Of a stretch of 64,000 bases of DNA, positions 16,306 through 49,353 are shown piece by piece; the stretch's first letter is position 1, and each line of letters opens with the position of its first letter. Position numbers and translations under genes: made by a program. The notes beneath the pieces were generated by a model. It was given only the letters and a program-made list of their open reading frames with translations, did not search any database and was not told the origin of the DNA. Source of the stretch: Buttiauxella sp. B2 (GTDB taxonomy: Bacteria; Pseudomonadota; Gammaproteobacteria; Enterobacterales; Enterobacteriaceae); contig NZ_VEXQ01000002.1 in the NCBI RefSeq assembly GCF_006376615.1, positions 310,001-374,000 on the forward strand, written 5' to 3'.

Positions 16306-17052
16306 ATGCTGAGCATTAAAGATCTACAGGTAAGCGTTGAGGATAAAGAAATTCTGCGTGGCTTGAGTCTGGAAATAAAGCCGGGTGAAGTTCACGCCAT
16401 TATGGGGCCGAACGGCTCAGGGAAAAGTACGCTTTCCGCGACACTTGCCGGACGTGATGATTACGAGGTTACCGGTGGCCAGGTACATTTTAAAGGCAAA
16501 GACCTGCTTGAGTTGTCCCCGGAAGACCGTGCGGGTGAAGGCATTTTTATGGCGTTCCAGTATCCGGTAGAAATTCCGGGTGTCAGTAACCAGTTCTTCC
16601 TGCAAACCGCGCTGAATGCGGTACGCGAATATCGAGGTCTTGAACAACTTGACCGTTTTGACTTCCAGGATTTGATGGAAGAAAAAATCAAACTGCTGAA
16701 GATGCCAGAAGATTTGCTGACGCGTTCGGTGAACGTGGGTTTCTCTGGCGGCGAGAAAAAGCGTAACGACATTCTGCAAATGGCGGTACTTGAGCCTGAA
16801 CTTTGCATTCTTGATGAGTCAGATTCTGGACTGGACATTGATGCACTGAAAATCGTCGCAGAAGGGGTGAATTCTTTACGTGATGGCAAACGCTCATTTG
16901 TGATTGTCACGCACTACCAGCGCATTCTTGACTACATCAAGCCTGATTTCGTGCATGTGCTTTATCAGGGGCGAATCGTGAAATCGGGCGATTTCAGTTT
17001 GGTGAAACAACTGGAGGAGCAGGGCTATGGCTGGCTTACCGAACAGCAGTAA
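16306..17052 (+). CDS. sufC: SufC, Fe-S assembly ATPase
   Basis: The 248-residue soluble ABC-type ATPase powers conformational change in SufBC2D. Walker A is GPNGSGKST (residues 34-42), the signature is SGGEKKRNDILQ, and Walker B is LCILDESDSGLD with the catalytic Glu and D-loop; the switch His is in VTHYQ. The 3' end overlaps sufD by 26 bp. Confidence 0.98.
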   Translation: MLSIKDLQVSVEDKEILRGLSLEIKPGEVHAIMGPNGSGKSTLSATLAGRDDYEVTGGQVHFKGKDLLELSPEDRAGEGIFMAFQYPVEIPGVSNQFFLQTALNAVREYRGLEQLDRFDFQDLMEEKIKLLKMPEDLLTRSVNVGFSGGEKKRNDILQMAVLEPELCILDESDSGLDIDALKIVAEGVNSLRDGKRSFVIVTHYQRILDYIKPDFVHVLYQGRIVKSGDFSLVKQLEEQGYGWLTEQQ

Positions 17053-23988: not shown

Positions 23989-24303
23989 ATGCTATCACTG
24001 GAAATGGAAGAAGATGTTGTCCTGCGGATAAAAGGCATGGAAAAAATGCTTGAAGGGATTGTCCGTGAACTCAACGCTAACAAAGGTGTTGTCGATGAGT
24101 TTATTCGGGATGATATTGCAAGGTTCCGGCACTGTTCAAAAGATGTAATTACGCAGCATGTTCAGGTATCTCGCGACGTACGCAAAAGACTGGAAAATGT
24201 CACCATCTATTCGCAAAAACGCGTACGTAAAACGGCGCAGAATAACTTGCTATACGGTGTGTTATGCGGGATGTCATTCTGCATGATTCTGCAATTGATG
24301 TAA
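23989..24303 (+). CDS. Unrecognised 104-residue tail-anchored protein
   Basis: I do not recognise this protein. Residues 1-85 are charged and heptad-like (many Glu, Lys, Arg, Val, Leu), predicting a helical or coiled-coil cytoplasmic domain. Residues about 87-104 (YGVLCGMSFCMILQLM) are hydrophobic and end the protein, so a C-terminal membrane anchor is likely. ATG 23989 has a modest GGA ribosome site; ATG 24004 is an alternative. A strong terminator follows at once, which supports a real gene. It is convergent with the binding-protein operon, and no function is proposed. Confidence 0.6.
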   Translation: MLSLEMEEDVVLRIKGMEKMLEGIVRELNANKGVVDEFIRDDIARFRHCSKDVITQHVQVSRDVRKRLENVTIYSQKRVRKTAQNNLLYGVLCGMSFCMILQLM

Positions 24304-24367: not shown

Positions 24368-25249
24368 TCATTGAATAAGGTATTTATGCATTTCAGAGGT
24401 AAGGGGCAAGTGCAGGTTAATATTTCTATCTGGCAGGTTGCTATTAAACCACTTGTCATAAAACTGTTTGAAGTCAGCACGTTTAAAGCGAACTGCCAGG
24501 TTGTAGTCGACCATCCTTTTTAATTCTGTATCGCCATGGCGCATCATGATCCCTAAATCCAGAGGGGCGCCCAATACCTCTCTCGAAACCGCATACTGCA
24601 TTGGGTTGGCACTGCTTTCAATGAATTCCTTCAACGACACTTCATTCATTACCGTCGCATAGCTTTTACGATTACTCATCGCGTCAAACGACTCTTTTAT
24701 CGAAGGTTGAGAAAGAATCAATAGATTTAGTTTTTGTAGCCGGTTAAGACGATTGAGATTAATTAAGTCTGTAGAGCCTTTGGTTACGCTGATAGTTCTG
24801 CCGGCTAAATCTGTGCTGGAGCGAATTTTGTTTCCCGCTTGCATCCCAAAACGTGTATTAACGGACAAATAGTGGTGAGAAAAAAGCACCATACTTTCAC
24901 GTTTCACTGTATCGGTATTAAAAGAGCAGTCCATATCAATAATATTGTGATTGAGCATTGTGGTGCGCATAGTGAGCGGGGCAGGAACATAATTGACGAC
25001 CAGATTATTAAGGTGTAGTTCTCTTTTCAGCGATTCAGTCACGTCTTTGCATAAGTCAATGACATAACCTACCACATGCCCATCACTAGTTTTATAAGAG
25101 TAAGGATCGATATCACGATAGCCAATATTAATCACTTTATATGCGGCAATTTTTTCCAGAGTGGACATGTTCAACTCTGCATTGGCTACGGTTGCGTAAC
25201 TAAGTAATAAAATACTCAATAAGTAATTCAGACCATTTTTGTTTTTCAT
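24368..25249 (-). CDS. GltI-like periplasmic binding protein, copy 1
   Basis: The 293-residue family 3 solute-binding protein has a signal peptide ending at ...ATVANA. It resembles the glutamate/aspartate-binding protein GltI: IDMDCSFNTDTVKRES aligns with the GltI FECGSTTNN-ERQ region including its ligand Arg. The C-terminus YDKWFNSNLPDRNINLHLPL aligns with the GltI end. No permease or ATPase genes are nearby, so a transport role is doubtful. It is third in an operon with a paralogue (16-bp gap) and a GGDEF-EAL protein, suggesting ligand sensing. Confidence 0.82.
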   Translation of the reverse strand: MKNKNGLNYLLSILLLSYATVANAELNMSTLEKIAAYKVINIGYRDIDPYSYKTSDGHVVGYVIDLCKDVTESLKRELHLNNLVVNYVPAPLTMRTTMLNHNIIDMDCSFNTDTVKRESMVLFSHHYLSVNTRFGMQAGNKIRSSTDLAGRTISVTKGSTDLINLNRLNRLQKLNLLILSQPSIKESFDAMSNRKSYATVMNEVSLKEFIESSANPMQYAVSREVLGAPLDLGIMMRHGDTELKRMVDYNLAVRFKRADFKQFYDKWFNSNLPDRNINLHLPLTSEMHKYLIQ

Positions 25250-25265
25250 TAGTATTTTTTTATTG

Positions 25266-26183
25266 TTAGTAAGAATAAAGTTTTTCCGAGGATACTGACT
25301 TCTGCAACTCAGGCGATAATGGCAAATTAAGAGTAATTCCTTCAGGTATTATCGGCTGCAAAAACCATTTGTTATAAATGGAGATGAACTCTTTGCTCCG
25401 CATCAAGCGCTTCATGGAACGATTGATAAGACTGGTAAACGCGGCATTGTTCTTCTGCATCGGCATGCCAATAGGCAGACGCGAGCTGAGAGTGTCTTCA
25501 GACATACTAAACGCCTGTGGATGTCCAGAAAGCGCCATTTGAGCAAGAATCAGAACGTCGCTTGAGACTAGTGCGGGTGTTTTACCACTTTCAAGTTCGG
25601 AGAAGGCTTTGATGTTGTCAGTTCCGAGATCGATATTGAGGGATAACTGATGTTCAGTATTCGCTTGCTGGATGTGCCTGACAAAAACGGTTCCGCTTTT
25701 GACCATGACGGTATGTCCATTTAGTTCATTAATATCCGAAATATCATCATCTTTGCGTGAAACAAAACGGGTTGCCGAGAAGAAATAGGGCTCCGAGAAA
25801 GTCACTATTTTTTGGCGTTCTGCCGTGTATATTGTGGGGATGCATCCCATATCGATGGTTTTATTTTTGATTGTTATAAATTGGGTCGCGGTGCTGACGG
25901 GGATCCATTTAATCTTCAATGTTGAAAGATGGAGTTCCTGCTTAAGCATGCCAATCAACTCGTAGCATATGTCAATGGAATAACCCTGAGGCTTGCTACC
26001 TTCGACATAGGAAAAAGGAAATACATCAGTCTGATAACTCAGCGTAATACTCTTGCTTTGCACAATATTTGATATCAAGTCGTTGGCTCGGCTAACCGAA
26101 GGTATTAGCAGACAGATACTGAGCAAAAGTGTCGCAGCCAAAGCTAACAAGTGCTGATAAAAATGAATGGCTATTAATTGCAT
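25266..26183 (-). CDS. GltI-like periplasmic binding protein, copy 2
   Basis: The 305-residue family 3 solute-binding protein has a signal peptide ending near PSVSRA. It is homologous to the downstream copy and to GltI: SYQTDVFPFSYVEGSKPQGY, IDMGCIPTIYTAERQKIV with the ligand Arg, and YNKWFLQPIIPEGITLNL at the end. The likely ligand class is an acidic amino acid or similar, by family only. Its start overlaps the GGDEF-EAL gene by 10 bp with GGAG upstream, so translation is coupled. This arrangement favours a sensory partnership. Confidence 0.82.
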   Translation of the reverse strand: MQLIAIHFYQHLLALAATLLLSICLLIPSVSRANDLISNIVQSKSITLSYQTDVFPFSYVEGSKPQGYSIDICYELIGMLKQELHLSTLKIKWIPVSTATQFITIKNKTIDMGCIPTIYTAERQKIVTFSEPYFFSATRFVSRKDDDISDINELNGHTVMVKSGTVFVRHIQQANTEHQLSLNIDLGTDNIKAFSELESGKTPALVSSDVLILAQMALSGHPQAFSMSEDTLSSRLPIGMPMQKNNAAFTSLINRSMKRLMRSKEFISIYNKWFLQPIIPEGITLNLPLSPELQKSVSSEKLYSY

Positions 26184-28393
26184 GTGGACTCCAGTCTGTG
26201 TTGCTCAAGTTCTACCATAGCACTGCTATTTTCCACCGGTCGCCCAAAGTGATAACCCTGCACAGTCATTTTCCCCTCACTAATGGACGCTAGATAGTCG
26301 CACTGTTGCTGCGTTTCAACACCTACGGCGGTGACGTCCAATCCCCGTTGCAGTGCGTAACGAACCAGCATGCTAACTAAGGTCTGGCTGTCTTCACATT
26401 TATCGAGCACTTCGATGAGTGTGCGAGCAATTTTAATGTGGCTAAACGGATATATAATCAGATAATCCAGTGTGGCAAAGCCCGTTCCAAATTCGTCCAA
26501 TACAATACCAACGCCCAATGCCTGAATAGCATTGAGAATGGGTAAAATGACTTTACGATCGAGTTGTTCAGACCCGGTAATTTCTATTTCAAGGCGGGCA
26601 GGGTTCAGGCCACTGTCTTGCAATGCGTTGCGAATGGTATCCAATATTTTGGGATTACGAAGCTGATGTGAAGAGACATTAACCGCAACTGTTAACGCTT
26701 GCGGCCAATTGGCGGCGTCCATACACGCGTTACGAATCAGCCATTCCCCCAATGTCGCAATAAGCCCAATATCTTCAGAGACAGAAATAAAATGGTGTGG
26801 TTGCAGCAAACCTCGAACGGGATGCTGCCAACGTACCAGTGCTTCATAACCCGTAGTGTTACAACTATCGAGGCTGACGATTTTTTGATAATGCAGGAAG
26901 AACTCATTATTTATTATTCCGTCTTCAATCTCCTGACTAAAGTTCAGGTTATTTGATGGGTTCATCGTCATGCCATGAGAATAAAAATGGAAGCAGTTAC
27001 GCCCGAAGCTTTTGGATGTGTAGAGCGCAAGATCAGCATGAGCGAATAAATCCTCTCGGGTATTACCATGCTGTGGTGCGCAGGAAATACCGATACTGCT
27101 GCTGATAGAAAAGATATTGCCACTACAAGAAAAGGGTTTATTAAGCGTGTCTAACACATGTTGTGCCAACACTTTTGCCTCAGAAACTGCATCGTGATGG
27201 ACATACTGAAGAATGGCAAACTCGTCCCCGCCAAGACGAATGGCCATATCACCATCACTGAGTAGAGCAGACAATCGAGCTGCTGACTCAATAAGCAGTT
27301 CGTCGCCAACAACATGCCCGTAGGTGTCGTTAACTGGCTTAAAATTGTCGAGATCAATTAGCAACAGATTGAAGATGCTGCCCTGGGTTCTTAATTTTAT
27401 TAGCCGACCGTCGATAGAGTTTCGATAAGAGACCCTGTTTGGTAGCAATGTCAGGGAATCATGATGCGCCATGTATTCCATTTTTTGCGCCATCTCCTGC
27501 ATGCGTTGCAGATAACCGCGTTCAACCATTGCCACGCGCAATTTCTCAATCGCTTTCGCCAGTTCACCAATTTCGTCATCCTGGGTCTGGAACGGGGTTA
27601 TCTGATCGGTTTTTTCATCGGCTATTAATGTCACCGCCTGGATAAGGCGAGGAACAGGCCGGAAAAGATTACGCACCAGCCAATTGACTACCACAACGGT
27701 CGCGCCGAGGATTAAAATCAACATCAGTAGGGTGTTTTTCAATAATCGGTTATGAGTGGCAAATAAAGCGTCGCGATCGCCAATGCTTGTGACAACTGCG
27801 CCTAACAGCTTGCCAGAAAAATTAACGATAGGAATTGAACCTACGAAATACTCTTTGCCGCCGATGATAATAAATCCGCGGTAATATTGTTCTAACGTGC
27901 AATTATCAGATTTCTCGCCAATAGGTGTTATCTTTTGTGCCGTGTGGGTATCGGTAAAACCCTGCTTTTTGTCATACCTCAATAGCCATACTGGATTATG
28001 AGTCTGCGTTGATATCTGACTTAGCATATCGTCCGGGTTAATCCCTGTTTGGATCAACGTCTCGTCGTCATCTAATGCATGTTCAGATTCAATGGTGATG
28101 ACCTGACCTTCGTGATTGGATTTAACCGTGACGGAGGTGTAGATATTTCGAATGATAAAACTGGCAATTTGTGAATTGGAAGCAGCTTGTTTAAACCATT
28201 GCACGTGAGAAATGCGATTAACCTCGAAAACGCCCGCGCCAGAACCCACGCCATAGGCAACCAAGACACCCAGCATTAGGTAAATAGCAACTTTGCCCGT
28301 AATCGAGTGATACCAATGATATTCCCCACGCAAGTCAGAATCTTGTGTACGTGCAGGTGTAATCTCATGAGTACTGAGCTCTTTATCAACCAT
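26174..28393 (-). CDS. Membrane GGDEF-EAL protein, EAL degenerate
   Basis: The protein of about 739 residues has two membrane spans (about residues 35-55 and 220-242) enclosing a periplasmic domain of about 165 residues. A HAMP-like linker, GGDEF and EAL domains follow. GGDEF is intact (RLGGDEFAI), with SDGD where an inhibitory-site RxxD would be. In EAL, the EALVRW glutamate remains. However, canonical ELTES reads EITGS, DDFGTG reads DEFGTG, LKIDR reads IKIAR and AEGVET reads AVGVET, so phosphodiesterase activity is probably lost. ATG 28393 is chosen; TTG 28435 would add 14 residues. Confidence 0.88.
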   Translation of the reverse strand: MVDKELSTHEITPARTQDSDLRGEYHWYHSITGKVAIYLMLGVLVAYGVGSGAGVFEVNRISHVQWFKQAASNSQIASFIIRNIYTSVTVKSNHEGQVITIESEHALDDDETLIQTGINPDDMLSQISTQTHNPVWLLRYDKKQGFTDTHTAQKITPIGEKSDNCTLEQYYRGFIIIGGKEYFVGSIPIVNFSGKLLGAVVTSIGDRDALFATHNRLLKNTLLMLILILGATVVVVNWLVRNLFRPVPRLIQAVTLIADEKTDQITPFQTQDDEIGELAKAIEKLRVAMVERGYLQRMQEMAQKMEYMAHHDSLTLLPNRVSYRNSIDGRLIKLRTQGSIFNLLLIDLDNFKPVNDTYGHVVGDELLIESAARLSALLSDGDMAIRLGGDEFAILQYVHHDAVSEAKVLAQHVLDTLNKPFSCSGNIFSISSSIGISCAPQHGNTREDLFAHADLALYTSKSFGRNCFHFYSHGMTMNPSNNLNFSQEIEDGIINNEFFLHYQKIVSLDSCNTTGYEALVRWQHPVRGLLQPHHFISVSEDIGLIATLGEWLIRNACMDAANWPQALTVAVNVSSHQLRNPKILDTIRNALQDSGLNPARLEIEITGSEQLDRKVILPILNAIQALGVGIVLDEFGTGFATLDYLIIYPFSHIKIARTLIEVLDKCEDSQTLVSMLVRYALQRGLDVTAVGVETQQQCDYLASISEGKMTVQGYHFGRPVENSSAMVELEQHRLESTCN

Positions 28394-28826
28394 TTTTCTA
28401 TTAATACTCTTATCCAGCGAATAAAGAAGGCTCAAAATGGAATGGTGGTCATATAACCGGTCATTTTTTAACTGTCGTTAATATATTGCTGTGCGTTATA
28501 TATTTTGTTTAAAAGATGTTGGTTGTTTGTGGTGTTTTTATGTTTTTGAAAAAAAGTGTGGTTTTATTATAAGGAAGTATATCACTTACTCTTTGAAGTA
28601 TAAAGTTAGCCAGTTAATGCGTCAATGACAAGTAGCTGTAAGGCATTAATTTGGGTTTTGTATTTATTACACATCCAAATGCGAGCTTGTTAATTGTAGA
28701 AAAATACATATTATTTATTGTGGATAATTAAATGTGATTGTGATTGTTTGTTTATATATACATGTTCGATGTCGTAACGTGGGCAAGATATATATATTTA
28801 ATAACGAATCTGCTCACCGAAGCCAT
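28394..28826. other. AT-rich region between GGDEF-EAL gene and ychF
   Basis: About 430 bp of very AT-rich DNA with no supported gene. It should contain the minus-strand promoter of the GGDEF-EAL operon; several TATAAT-like hexamers occur and none can be singled out. It forms the far boundary of the AT-rich accessory segment that begins near 23460. Confidence 0.5.
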
Positions 28827-48564: not shown

Positions 48565-49353
48565 ATGAAAAAAATCATCCAGGTTCAGAATGTCAGCCAG
48601 CGTTTTCCCACGGACAGCGGCGAGTTTTTAGCGCTCAACAACGTGAGCTTTGATATTGCTGAAGGGGAAACTATCAGCCTGATAGGCCACTCGGGATGCG
48701 GTAAATCCACACTGCTGAATTTAATTGCCGGGATCACACTGCCGTCCGAAGGTGGTTTGCTTTGCAATAACCGCGAAATTGCAGGCCCAGGGCCTGAGCG
48801 CGCGGTGGTGTTCCAGAATCACTCTCTGCTGCCATGGATGACCTGTTTTGAAAACGTCGCCCTGGCGGTGGATCAGGTGTTTCGCCGCACCATGAATCGC
48901 GCTGAGCGCCGCGAATGGATTATCCACAATCTGGAACGAGTGCAGATGGGGCATGCCATAAATAAACGCCCTGGGGAGATTTCCGGCGGCATGAAACAGC
49001 GTGTTGGCATTGCCCGCGCACTGGCAATGAAACCTAAAGTTCTGCTGATGGATGAACCGTTTGGCGCGCTGGATGCATTAACACGCGCCCATTTGCAGGA
49101 TGCGGTAATGCACATCCAGCAGGAACTGCACACCACCATTGTGCTCATCACGCATGATGTGGACGAAGCGATTCTGCTTTCCGACCGCGTGCTGATGATG
49201 ACTAACGGCCCGGCGGCGACAGTAGGCGAAACGTTACATGTTGATTTGCCGCGTTCACGCAACCGCGTTGAACTGGCGGAAGACCGCCGCTATCACCACC
49301 TGCGCCAGCAAGTGCTGCGTTTCTTGTACGAAAAACAGCCAAAGGTTGCCTGA
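48565..49353 (+). CDS. nasD: NasD, nitrate ABC transporter ATPase
   Basis: The 262-residue ATPase energises nitrate import with NasE and NasF. Walker A is GHSGCGKST (near residue 40), the signature ISGGMKQRVGIARAL, Walker B LLMDEPFGALD and the switch His in ITHDVDEA. It lacks the extra C-terminal substrate-binding domain seen in cyanobacterial NrtC. The next gene begins 10 bp downstream. Confidence 0.95.
   Translation: MKKIIQVQNVSQRFPTDSGEFLALNNVSFDIAEGETISLIGHSGCGKSTLLNLIAGITLPSEGGLLCNNREIAGPGPERAVVFQNHSLLPWMTCFENVALAVDQVFRRTMNRAERREWIIHNLERVQMGHAINKRPGEISGGMKQRVGIARALAMKPKVLLMDEPFGALDALTRAHLQDAVMHIQQELHTTIVLITHDVDEAILLSDRVLMMTNGPAATVGETLHVDLPRSRNRVELAEDRRYHHLRQQVLRFLYEKQPKVA

Follow-up and report, generated by a model that had tools for sequence, protein, structure and literature searches.

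Cyclic di-GMP (c-di-GMP) is the signal that tells bacterial cells to settle down and underlies the decision for biofilm formation, and we know of no external signal for most c-di-GMP enzymes. Some of these enzymes are already known to be gated by a periplasmic solute-binding protein (SBP), as in NspS-MbaA, ScrB-ScrC and ArtI-STM1987, and PruR-DcpA represents a further case with a different fold of the binding protein. The ligand state of NspS sets the activity of MbaA (PMC8967002), and according to PMC8846402, no family of the periplasmic binding protein clan except SBP_bac_3, in the case of RmcA, had been investigated in c-di-GMP networks. Here, we analyze an operon at positions 24368-28393 (minus strand) of a 64,000-nucleotide stretch of the Buttiauxella sp. 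B2 genome (contig NZ_VEXQ01000002.1; the whole stretch is called the window), which codes for an inner-membrane GGDEF-EAL enzyme and two SBPs, SBP1 and SBP2, with all three reading frames open. The same genome carries a second such set; the operon of the window is called copy A and the other one copy B. A preliminary description had likened the operon to NspS-MbaA, with another receptor family and two receptors instead of one, and the layout indeed matches, the SBPs are of the SBP_bac_3/GltI type, and the arrangement is conserved across genera. We consider it likely that the operon encodes a c-di-GMP sensor lacking a dedicated transporter, in which the two SBPs would gate a Cache-like sensor domain as NspS gates MbaA.

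Conservation of the three-gene cassette

The order enzyme-SBP1-SBP2 with both SBP genes present was found in 42 of 45 distinct loci, which comprise 24 from Buttiauxella, seven from Citrobacter, five from the genera g404 and g470, three of Halomonas-type and six from Rhizobiaceae. Split frames were scored as present and affect an SBP or the enzyme in four of the 42 loci (L065, L083, L130, L183), and the Citrobacter loci L157 and L158, which duplicate L104 and L109, were counted once. The full order is kept in 9/12 copies A and 12/12 copies B of Buttiauxella, in 7/7 Citrobacter loci and in the five loci of g404/g470, as well as in genomes G665 and G1527, one Halomonas plasmid and six Rhizobiaceae plasmids. 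All three exceptions are copies A: G303 contains SBP2 only, and G301 and G302 contain neither SBP. The preliminary description had proposed the co-occurrence of the three families as a check, and their recurrence in the same order in 42/45 loci of several genera indicates that the association exceeds chance.

The cassette is rare, yet spread over alpha- and gammaproteobacteria. A single-sequence search for the gene order yielded 3/295 genomes, all of them Buttiauxella and including our own, and a family profile search yielded 13/392 genomes from four genera (Buttiauxella 6, g385 2, g404 1, g470 4). When the class was searched with profile A1, 16/369 genomes passed an E-value of 1e-5, and only our own genome and G665 matched along the domain; the other matches were not counted as family members because they begin no earlier than model position 175, on the side of the second transmembrane segment (TM2) and the HAMP domain. 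The gene order of G665 was found in 1/194 genomes, namely G665 itself, whose genes share 88-93% identity with those of the Halomonas plasmid, hence its label Halomonas-type. A phylum-wide search with a sensor-only profile gave 5/398 genomes (three Buttiauxella, G665 and G1527), and seven of 72,556 plasmid records contained the enzyme gene followed by two SBP genes, one from Halomonas and six from Rhizobiaceae (Rhizobium 4, Allorhizobium 1, Agrobacterium vitis 1). The DNA of the copy B enzyme found no match in E. coli by blastn. The Rhizobiaceae cassettes lie on megaplasmids, and a location on conjugative plasmids could explain the scattered distribution. The plasmids carrying L180 (Rhizobium sp. 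SL42) and L185 (A. vitis pAt) were typed as conjugative, with the L180 cassette lying near traG.

The tight spacing of the three minus-strand genes given in the preliminary description agrees with the coordinates of the open reading frames (ORFs; Table 1), and it recurs in relatives: of 31 cassettes measured, 25 show an overlap of 4-23 bp between the genes of the enzyme and SBP1 (copies A 8/8, copies B 10/11, Citrobacter 7/7, g404/g470 0/5). The other six show gaps of 73-96 bp, which depend on the start codon chosen, both in g404/g470 and in L084 (79 bp). This measurement covers the loci of Buttiauxella, Citrobacter and g404/g470 with all three genes present and unsplit. The trees of SBP1, SBP2 and the enzyme agree in the order of lineages, with G665 and g404/g470 first, then Buttiauxella A, then Buttiauxella B together with Citrobacter, and both the SBP and the enzyme trees carry long-branch warnings. 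In an SBP tree without Rhizobiaceae, the cassette proteins form an SBP1 group (support 92/72) and an SBP2 group (100/98), apart from GltI; fragments below 230 aa were dropped from it and 11 loci were thinned (L067-L069, L077, L079, L080, L084, L086, L104, L107, L109). The enzyme tree was built from the first 500 residues per row, dropping the second fragment of L130.

All six genes of the two Buttiauxella cassettes are under purifying selection. The median ratios of nonsynonymous to synonymous substitution rates (dN/dS) are 0.086, 0.111 and 0.135 for the enzyme, SBP1 and SBP2 of copy A and 0.035, 0.098 and 0.106 for those of copy B; these ratios are rough, with dS near saturation and pairs dropped where dS was not computable or at most 0.02.

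Receptors, ligand pockets and the sensor domain

Both SBPs resemble GltI, as the preliminary description had noticed. They match SBP_bac_3 in Pfam (7e-24 for SBP1, 3e-18 for SBP2), their best NCBIfam model is GltI (PRK10797) with 130 and 137 bits, far under its cut-off of 375 bits, and the nearest solved structure for both is the GltI-type protein 2ia4/2vha; no polyamine SBP model appeared among their NCBIfam matches at an E-value of 0.01. By reading, both N-termini are signal-peptide-like, that of SBP1 without a lipobox.

The same description had reported neither a permease nor an ATPase. A tblastn search with the genome's own GltJ, GltK and GltL (E 1e-3) detected no GltJ or GltK homologue in the window, in agreement with the first part, and the second part holds for the vicinity of the operon, with two GltL-like stretches (16306-16914 and 48574-49209) each lying more than 7 kb away. 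No GltJ or GltK homologue was found beside any of the 45 cassettes within the flanking DNA examined, using tblastn for 37 regions and blastp of the ORFs for the other eight, so relatives do not show the SBPs mostly beside permease genes, which the preliminary description had named as evidence against its proposal. We therefore rejected a GltIJKL-type importer encoded at the cassettes. Two SBPs with no transporter alongside suggest a role in the sensing of small molecules, rather than their uptake, in the decision whether to form a biofilm. At L181, two ABC ATPases with 29-31% identity to GltL are encoded about 1.6 kb upstream of the cassette.

The SBPs might instead be accessory receptors of an unlinked ABC importer such as GltJKL that merely hitch-hike with the enzyme. 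GltI is their closest named relative, a gltIJKL-like set is present elsewhere in the genome (contig C14, genes named by reading), and a tree that includes Rhizobiaceae (a subset of cassettes, our own GltI and four GltI-like proteins) places GltI on the side of SBP1. We regard this explanation as very unlikely, because the identity to GltI is low (25% for SBP1, 31% for SBP2), the cassette SBPs stand apart from GltI in the tree without Rhizobiaceae, and SBP1 of the window lacks R24 and R75, two arginines for acidic ligands. Moreover, an SBP profile search of the class, in which 6/229 genomes passed an E-value of 1e-35, provided a comparison: GltJ, GltK or GltL homologues adjoin three of seven GltI-like proteins outside the cassette (L160, L161, L166; own genome excluded), versus GltJ or GltK at none of the 45 cassettes. 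None of these seven proteins has a GGDEF neighbour within the short flanks. The other four (L162, L163, L164, L167) lack GltJ, GltK or GltL homologues in their short flanks and are possibly further orphan receptors.

In GltI, S72 and S27 contact the side-chain carboxylate of the ligand (PMC10942590). The GltI pocket set of R24, S72, R75, S90, T92, R97, T140, T143, H164 and D182 is incomplete in both SBPs of the window. For the members of this set other than S72, we presume the roles usually assigned to them. SBP1 retains only R97 and T143 and carries R24Q, R75Q and D182S, while SBP2 retains R24, R75, T92, R97 and T140, with D182 replaced by N. The proposal that both receptors bind an acidic amino acid is thus not borne out: SBP1 has lost R24, R75 and D182, and only SBP2 keeps the three arginines. 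The same pattern holds throughout Buttiauxella and Citrobacter, where SBP1 (28 rows) shows R24 changed to Q in 27 and to E in one, R75 changed to Q in 28 and D182 changed to S in 28, and SBP2 (29 rows) keeps R24, R75 and R97. It is reversed in g404/g470, the Halomonas-type loci and five of six Rhizobiaceae loci, in which SBP1 keeps R24, R75, R97 and D182 and SBP2 lacks R24; the sixth (L183) was left unscored for an apparent frame change at the N-terminus of SBP1. Accordingly, the pair of R24 and R75 is kept by exactly one SBP in 41/41 scorable cassettes with both SBPs, from which we conclude that the two SBPs probably bind different ligands or represent one ligand-binding SBP and one co-receptor.

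The periplasmic domain of the enzyme between two membrane spans, as previously described, agrees with the hydropathy profile. It comprises about 155 aa, and hydropathy and motifs give a layout of a membrane span (~30-58), the periplasmic sensor (~59-215), a second span (~216-244), HAMP, GGDEF and EAL. Pfam recovers EAL (5e-55) and GGDEF (3e-41), and HAMP weakly at 0.012, below the cut-off; in a search of solved structures, HAMP structures matched the profile of the enzyme family at about 1e-6. A sensor alignment of 19 members (A4) contains 30 invariant columns, and 12/19 members match sCache_3_3 in Pfam (best E 2.4e-4), which makes the fold Cache-like at best. Searching solved structures with a wider sensor profile returned HAMP matches and some chance-level ones. 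We do not claim a relationship to LuxPQ, because a LuxQ match with the wider profile had an E-value of 0.67 and disappeared with the sensor-only profile A4.

We infer a mechanism in which SBP1 and SBP2 would be soluble periplasmic GltI-family proteins for small ligands, which in their closed, ligand-bound form would dock onto the Cache-like periplasmic domain of the enzyme. The resulting change would reach the GGDEF domain via TM2 and HAMP, and in copy A, ligand occupancy would then either raise or lower c-di-GMP synthesis. The ligand of SBP2 may be a dicarboxylate or similar to an acidic amino acid, and SBP1 may bind a compound without a side-chain carboxylate or act as a co-receptor without any ligand.

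Output domains and the second copy at a Lap locus

All copies A and B (12/12 each) carry an intact RLGGDEF motif, and no RxxD site was noticed in the GGDEF domains of either copy by reading. The preliminary description of a GGDEF-EAL protein is right as far as the Pfam domains go; a bifunctional readout is unlikely for the copy in the window, given the motif losses of its EAL domain and EAL deletions in relatives. All nine copies A keeping the EAL domain have lost the last Glu of ExTE (ITG for ITE) and the second Asp of DDFG (DE or DG for DD), and five of the nine lack the first Glu of AEGVE; for these residues, we assume the roles known from active EAL domains. The domain is deleted altogether in 3/12 copies A, which form one clade in the enzyme tree and include that of G296, where both SBPs and the ATGA overlap with SBP1 are retained. 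Halomonas-type enzymes also lack EAL, in the open frames of L179 and L186 (DGDEF in the latter) and in the split frame of L130, and judging from these sequences, a cyclase-only output appears to have arisen more than once. The copy A enzyme of the window is probably best read as a cyclase, with an EAL domain predicted to be inactive and serving a regulatory or structural role at most. In copy B, every displayed EAL motif position is kept (12/12), with ESL replacing EAL, so both catalytic domains retain their motifs.

Such losses may also mean that copy A is an eroding relic whose EAL domain and SBPs are disappearing, with a constitutive cyclase as the only part that matters. Among the 12 copies A, three have lost EAL, two both SBPs and one SBP1, and one has a split SBP2 frame. 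We consider this unlikely, given the three open frames in the window, the low dN/dS values of the genes (0.09-0.14) and even of the degenerate EAL domain among genomes keeping it (0.082, again with dS near saturation), which is thus still constrained, and a promoter block upstream of copy A which is kept in 12/12 Buttiauxella (alignment of 12 upstream regions). Promoter-like sites as such are not enriched in the scanned region (16 versus 15.1 in shuffled sequences).

LapG and LapD constitute a c-di-GMP-controlled adhesin switch. Two copies of the enzyme, A and B, are present in each of the 12 Buttiauxella genomes searched, and in the genome of the window the copy B enzyme is 51% identical to that of copy A (query residues 15-716 of 733) and followed by two SBPs. 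Directly behind them, a Peptidase_C93 protein (LapG) and a LapD_MoxY_N-HAMP-GGDEF-EAL protein (LapD) are encoded, and past LapD the window's own genome contains type I secretion genes for an outer-membrane channel, a C39-type ABC exporter and a HlyD protein. The order enzyme-SBP1-SBP2-LapG-LapD is kept in 12/12 Buttiauxella genomes (the SBP2 frame of G299 being split) and recurs in seven Citrobacter loci. Stand-alone cassettes are found in Halomonas, on the Rhizobiaceae megaplasmids and in the enterobacterial genera g404 and g470; those of g404/g470 (L152-L156) have no LapGD in the flanks examined, the contig of L153 ending 1.6 kb past SBP2. For copy B, we infer enzyme activity and a c-di-GMP signal that would probably be read locally by the co-encoded LapD, comparable to the signalling of GcbC to LapD, which would lead to a surface adhesin being held or released. 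Divergently upstream of copy B, a MASE1-EAL gene and CheA/CheB genes are located, together with CheR-like genes and genes resembling those for methyl-accepting chemotaxis proteins (MCP) by reading (L148 9021-13647, L009 1-4025), and the Citrobacter cassettes likewise adjoin MCP-, CheB- and CheR-like genes and an EAL gene.

More tentatively, and with considerable doubt, the cassettes may be regarded as a family of dual-receptor c-di-GMP modules across proteobacteria, in which sister SBPs with reciprocally altered pockets would provide opposing or conjunctive inputs to one Cache-like sensor. In Buttiauxella, the family would have split into a two-domain enzyme at the Lap locus and a cyclase-only paralogue shedding its EAL domain.

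Several observations weigh against SBP gating and the outputs proposed here. The sensor of the window itself has no Cache match in Pfam, which leaves the Cache assignment weak. Copies A of G301 and G302 keep sensor and intact GGDEF domains with both SBPs gone, and the G302 sensor breaks 0/30 invariant columns (of the two, G302 is part of alignment A4). Copy A of G303 has lost SBP1, and the SBP2 frame is split in copy A of G297 as well as in copy B of G299. Inheritance as one operon would by itself make the gene trees agree. In the tree that includes Rhizobiaceae, the second SBPs of L180, L183, L184 and L185 fall outside the SBP2 clade, the other lineages mostly staying together, and the position of GltI described above belongs to the same side of the balance. 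Beside copy B in the genome of the window, we identified no adhesin gene. The Mg-binding residues of RocR are E175, N233, E265 and D295 (PMC9993111), and by reading, these ligands appear to be kept in copy A, so that its EAL domain may not be wholly dead. The persistence of the G301 and G302 enzymes makes direct sensing of a small ligand by the Cache-like domain a real rival, with the SBPs only concentrating the ligand or acting as co-regulated scavengers; the Cache cyclase GcbC indeed responds to citrate through its own Cache domain (PMC6050961). We still hold this explanation to be rather unlikely, as it hardly accounts for two SBP genes after the enzyme gene, free of GltJ/GltK homologues, in 42/45 loci from alpha- and gammaproteobacteria.

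Copy B and the Citrobacter loci place two receptors, the enzyme and the LapD/LapG switch side by side in a conserved unit, in which every step between an amino acid-like ligand outside the cell and attachment to a surface can be tested. The cassette would further reveal how one receptor is shared by two SBPs, and how a cyclase-only protein evolves from an enzyme with two catalytic domains.

Copy A is located between ychF- and pykF-like genes, as named by reading. A convergent gene next to SBP2 (Table 1), which we do not claim as a member of the cassette, adjoins copy A in 12/12 Buttiauxella, with 89-93% identity in the 11 other genomes; its product has no significant Pfam or NCBIfam family, and a family search of 60 genomes retrieved only two Buttiauxella, our own included. 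In six Buttiauxella genomes, an extra EAL-domain gene immediately precedes copy A in the same orientation (L066 8468-10534; equivalents in L065 and L067-L070). It is missing from the genome of the window, where ychF adjoins copy A.

Table 1. Features of copy A and its surroundings in the window
Feature	Position	Strand	Remarks
GGDEF-EAL enzyme of copy A	26174-28393	-	739 aa, ATG start; alternative TTG start at 28435 possible
SBP1	25266-26183	-	10-bp overlap with enzyme gene; SBP_bac_3/GltI-like
SBP2	24368-25249	-	16-bp gap after SBP1; second GltI-like binding protein
Sigma-70-type promoter TTGACG-17-TATACT	28597-28625	-	about 200 bp upstream of enzyme start; scan and alignment
Sensor-domain coding region used for profile A4	27704-28231	-	
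104-aa protein	23989-24303	+	single C-terminal transmembrane segment; convergent with SBP2

Comparison with described systems

Among the matches listed in the literature searched, no title or beginning of an abstract described a dual-SBP c-di-GMP operon of the GltI type, and a paper naming both Buttiauxella and c-di-GMP (PMC9637222) concerns another enzyme, YeaJ. In the Lap system of Pseudomonas fluorescens, the Cache cyclase GcbC signals to LapD (PMC6050961), and copy B adjoins lapG and lapD. The difference is that SBPs are unmentioned in the abstract of that paper and that the linkage of copy B to LapD is a genetic one only.

PruR-DcpA of Agrobacterium tumefaciens is similar in that a periplasmic ligand-binding protein gates a GGDEF-EAL enzyme (PMC13259868). 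In contrast, PruR is a pterin-binding protein with a SUOX fold, and the sensor described here contains no conserved WX7E motif: of the two invariant Trp of A4, W12 is followed at a distance of eight residues by S or A in 19/19 rows, and W82 is followed by E at that distance in only 3/19 (L152, L153, L154). ArtI belongs to an arginine importer. In Salmonella, this putative amino-acid SBP is needed for the response of the Cache enzyme STM1987, which contains a dCACHE_1 domain and acts with one SBP, whereas two co-encoded SBPs are present here (PMC8846402).

The ScrABC system of Vibrio parahaemolyticus shares the switching of a GGDEF-EAL protein, ScrC, by a periplasmic binding protein, ScrB, but differs by using one SBP and an aminotransferase, ScrA, which makes the signal (PMC10269520, PMC11315295). 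Reading the ORFs beside the operon, we noticed no ScrA-type aminotransferase; no model search for ScrA was made.

The layout is like that of NspS-MbaA of Vibrio cholerae and Sinorhizobium meliloti, in which a periplasmic SBP is encoded together with an inner-membrane HAMP-GGDEF-EAL enzyme by overlapping genes, and the enzyme has no RxxD site (PMC8967002, PMC9993111). The enzyme of the window shows the same succession of periplasmic domain, weakly matched HAMP, GGDEF and EAL. NspS is a single polyamine SBP of the PotD family encoded before the enzyme, whereas SBP1 and SBP2 fall outside the PotD/PotF polyamine family and represent two SBP_bac_3/GltI-type proteins encoded after an enzyme that, in the window, carries a degenerate EAL domain.

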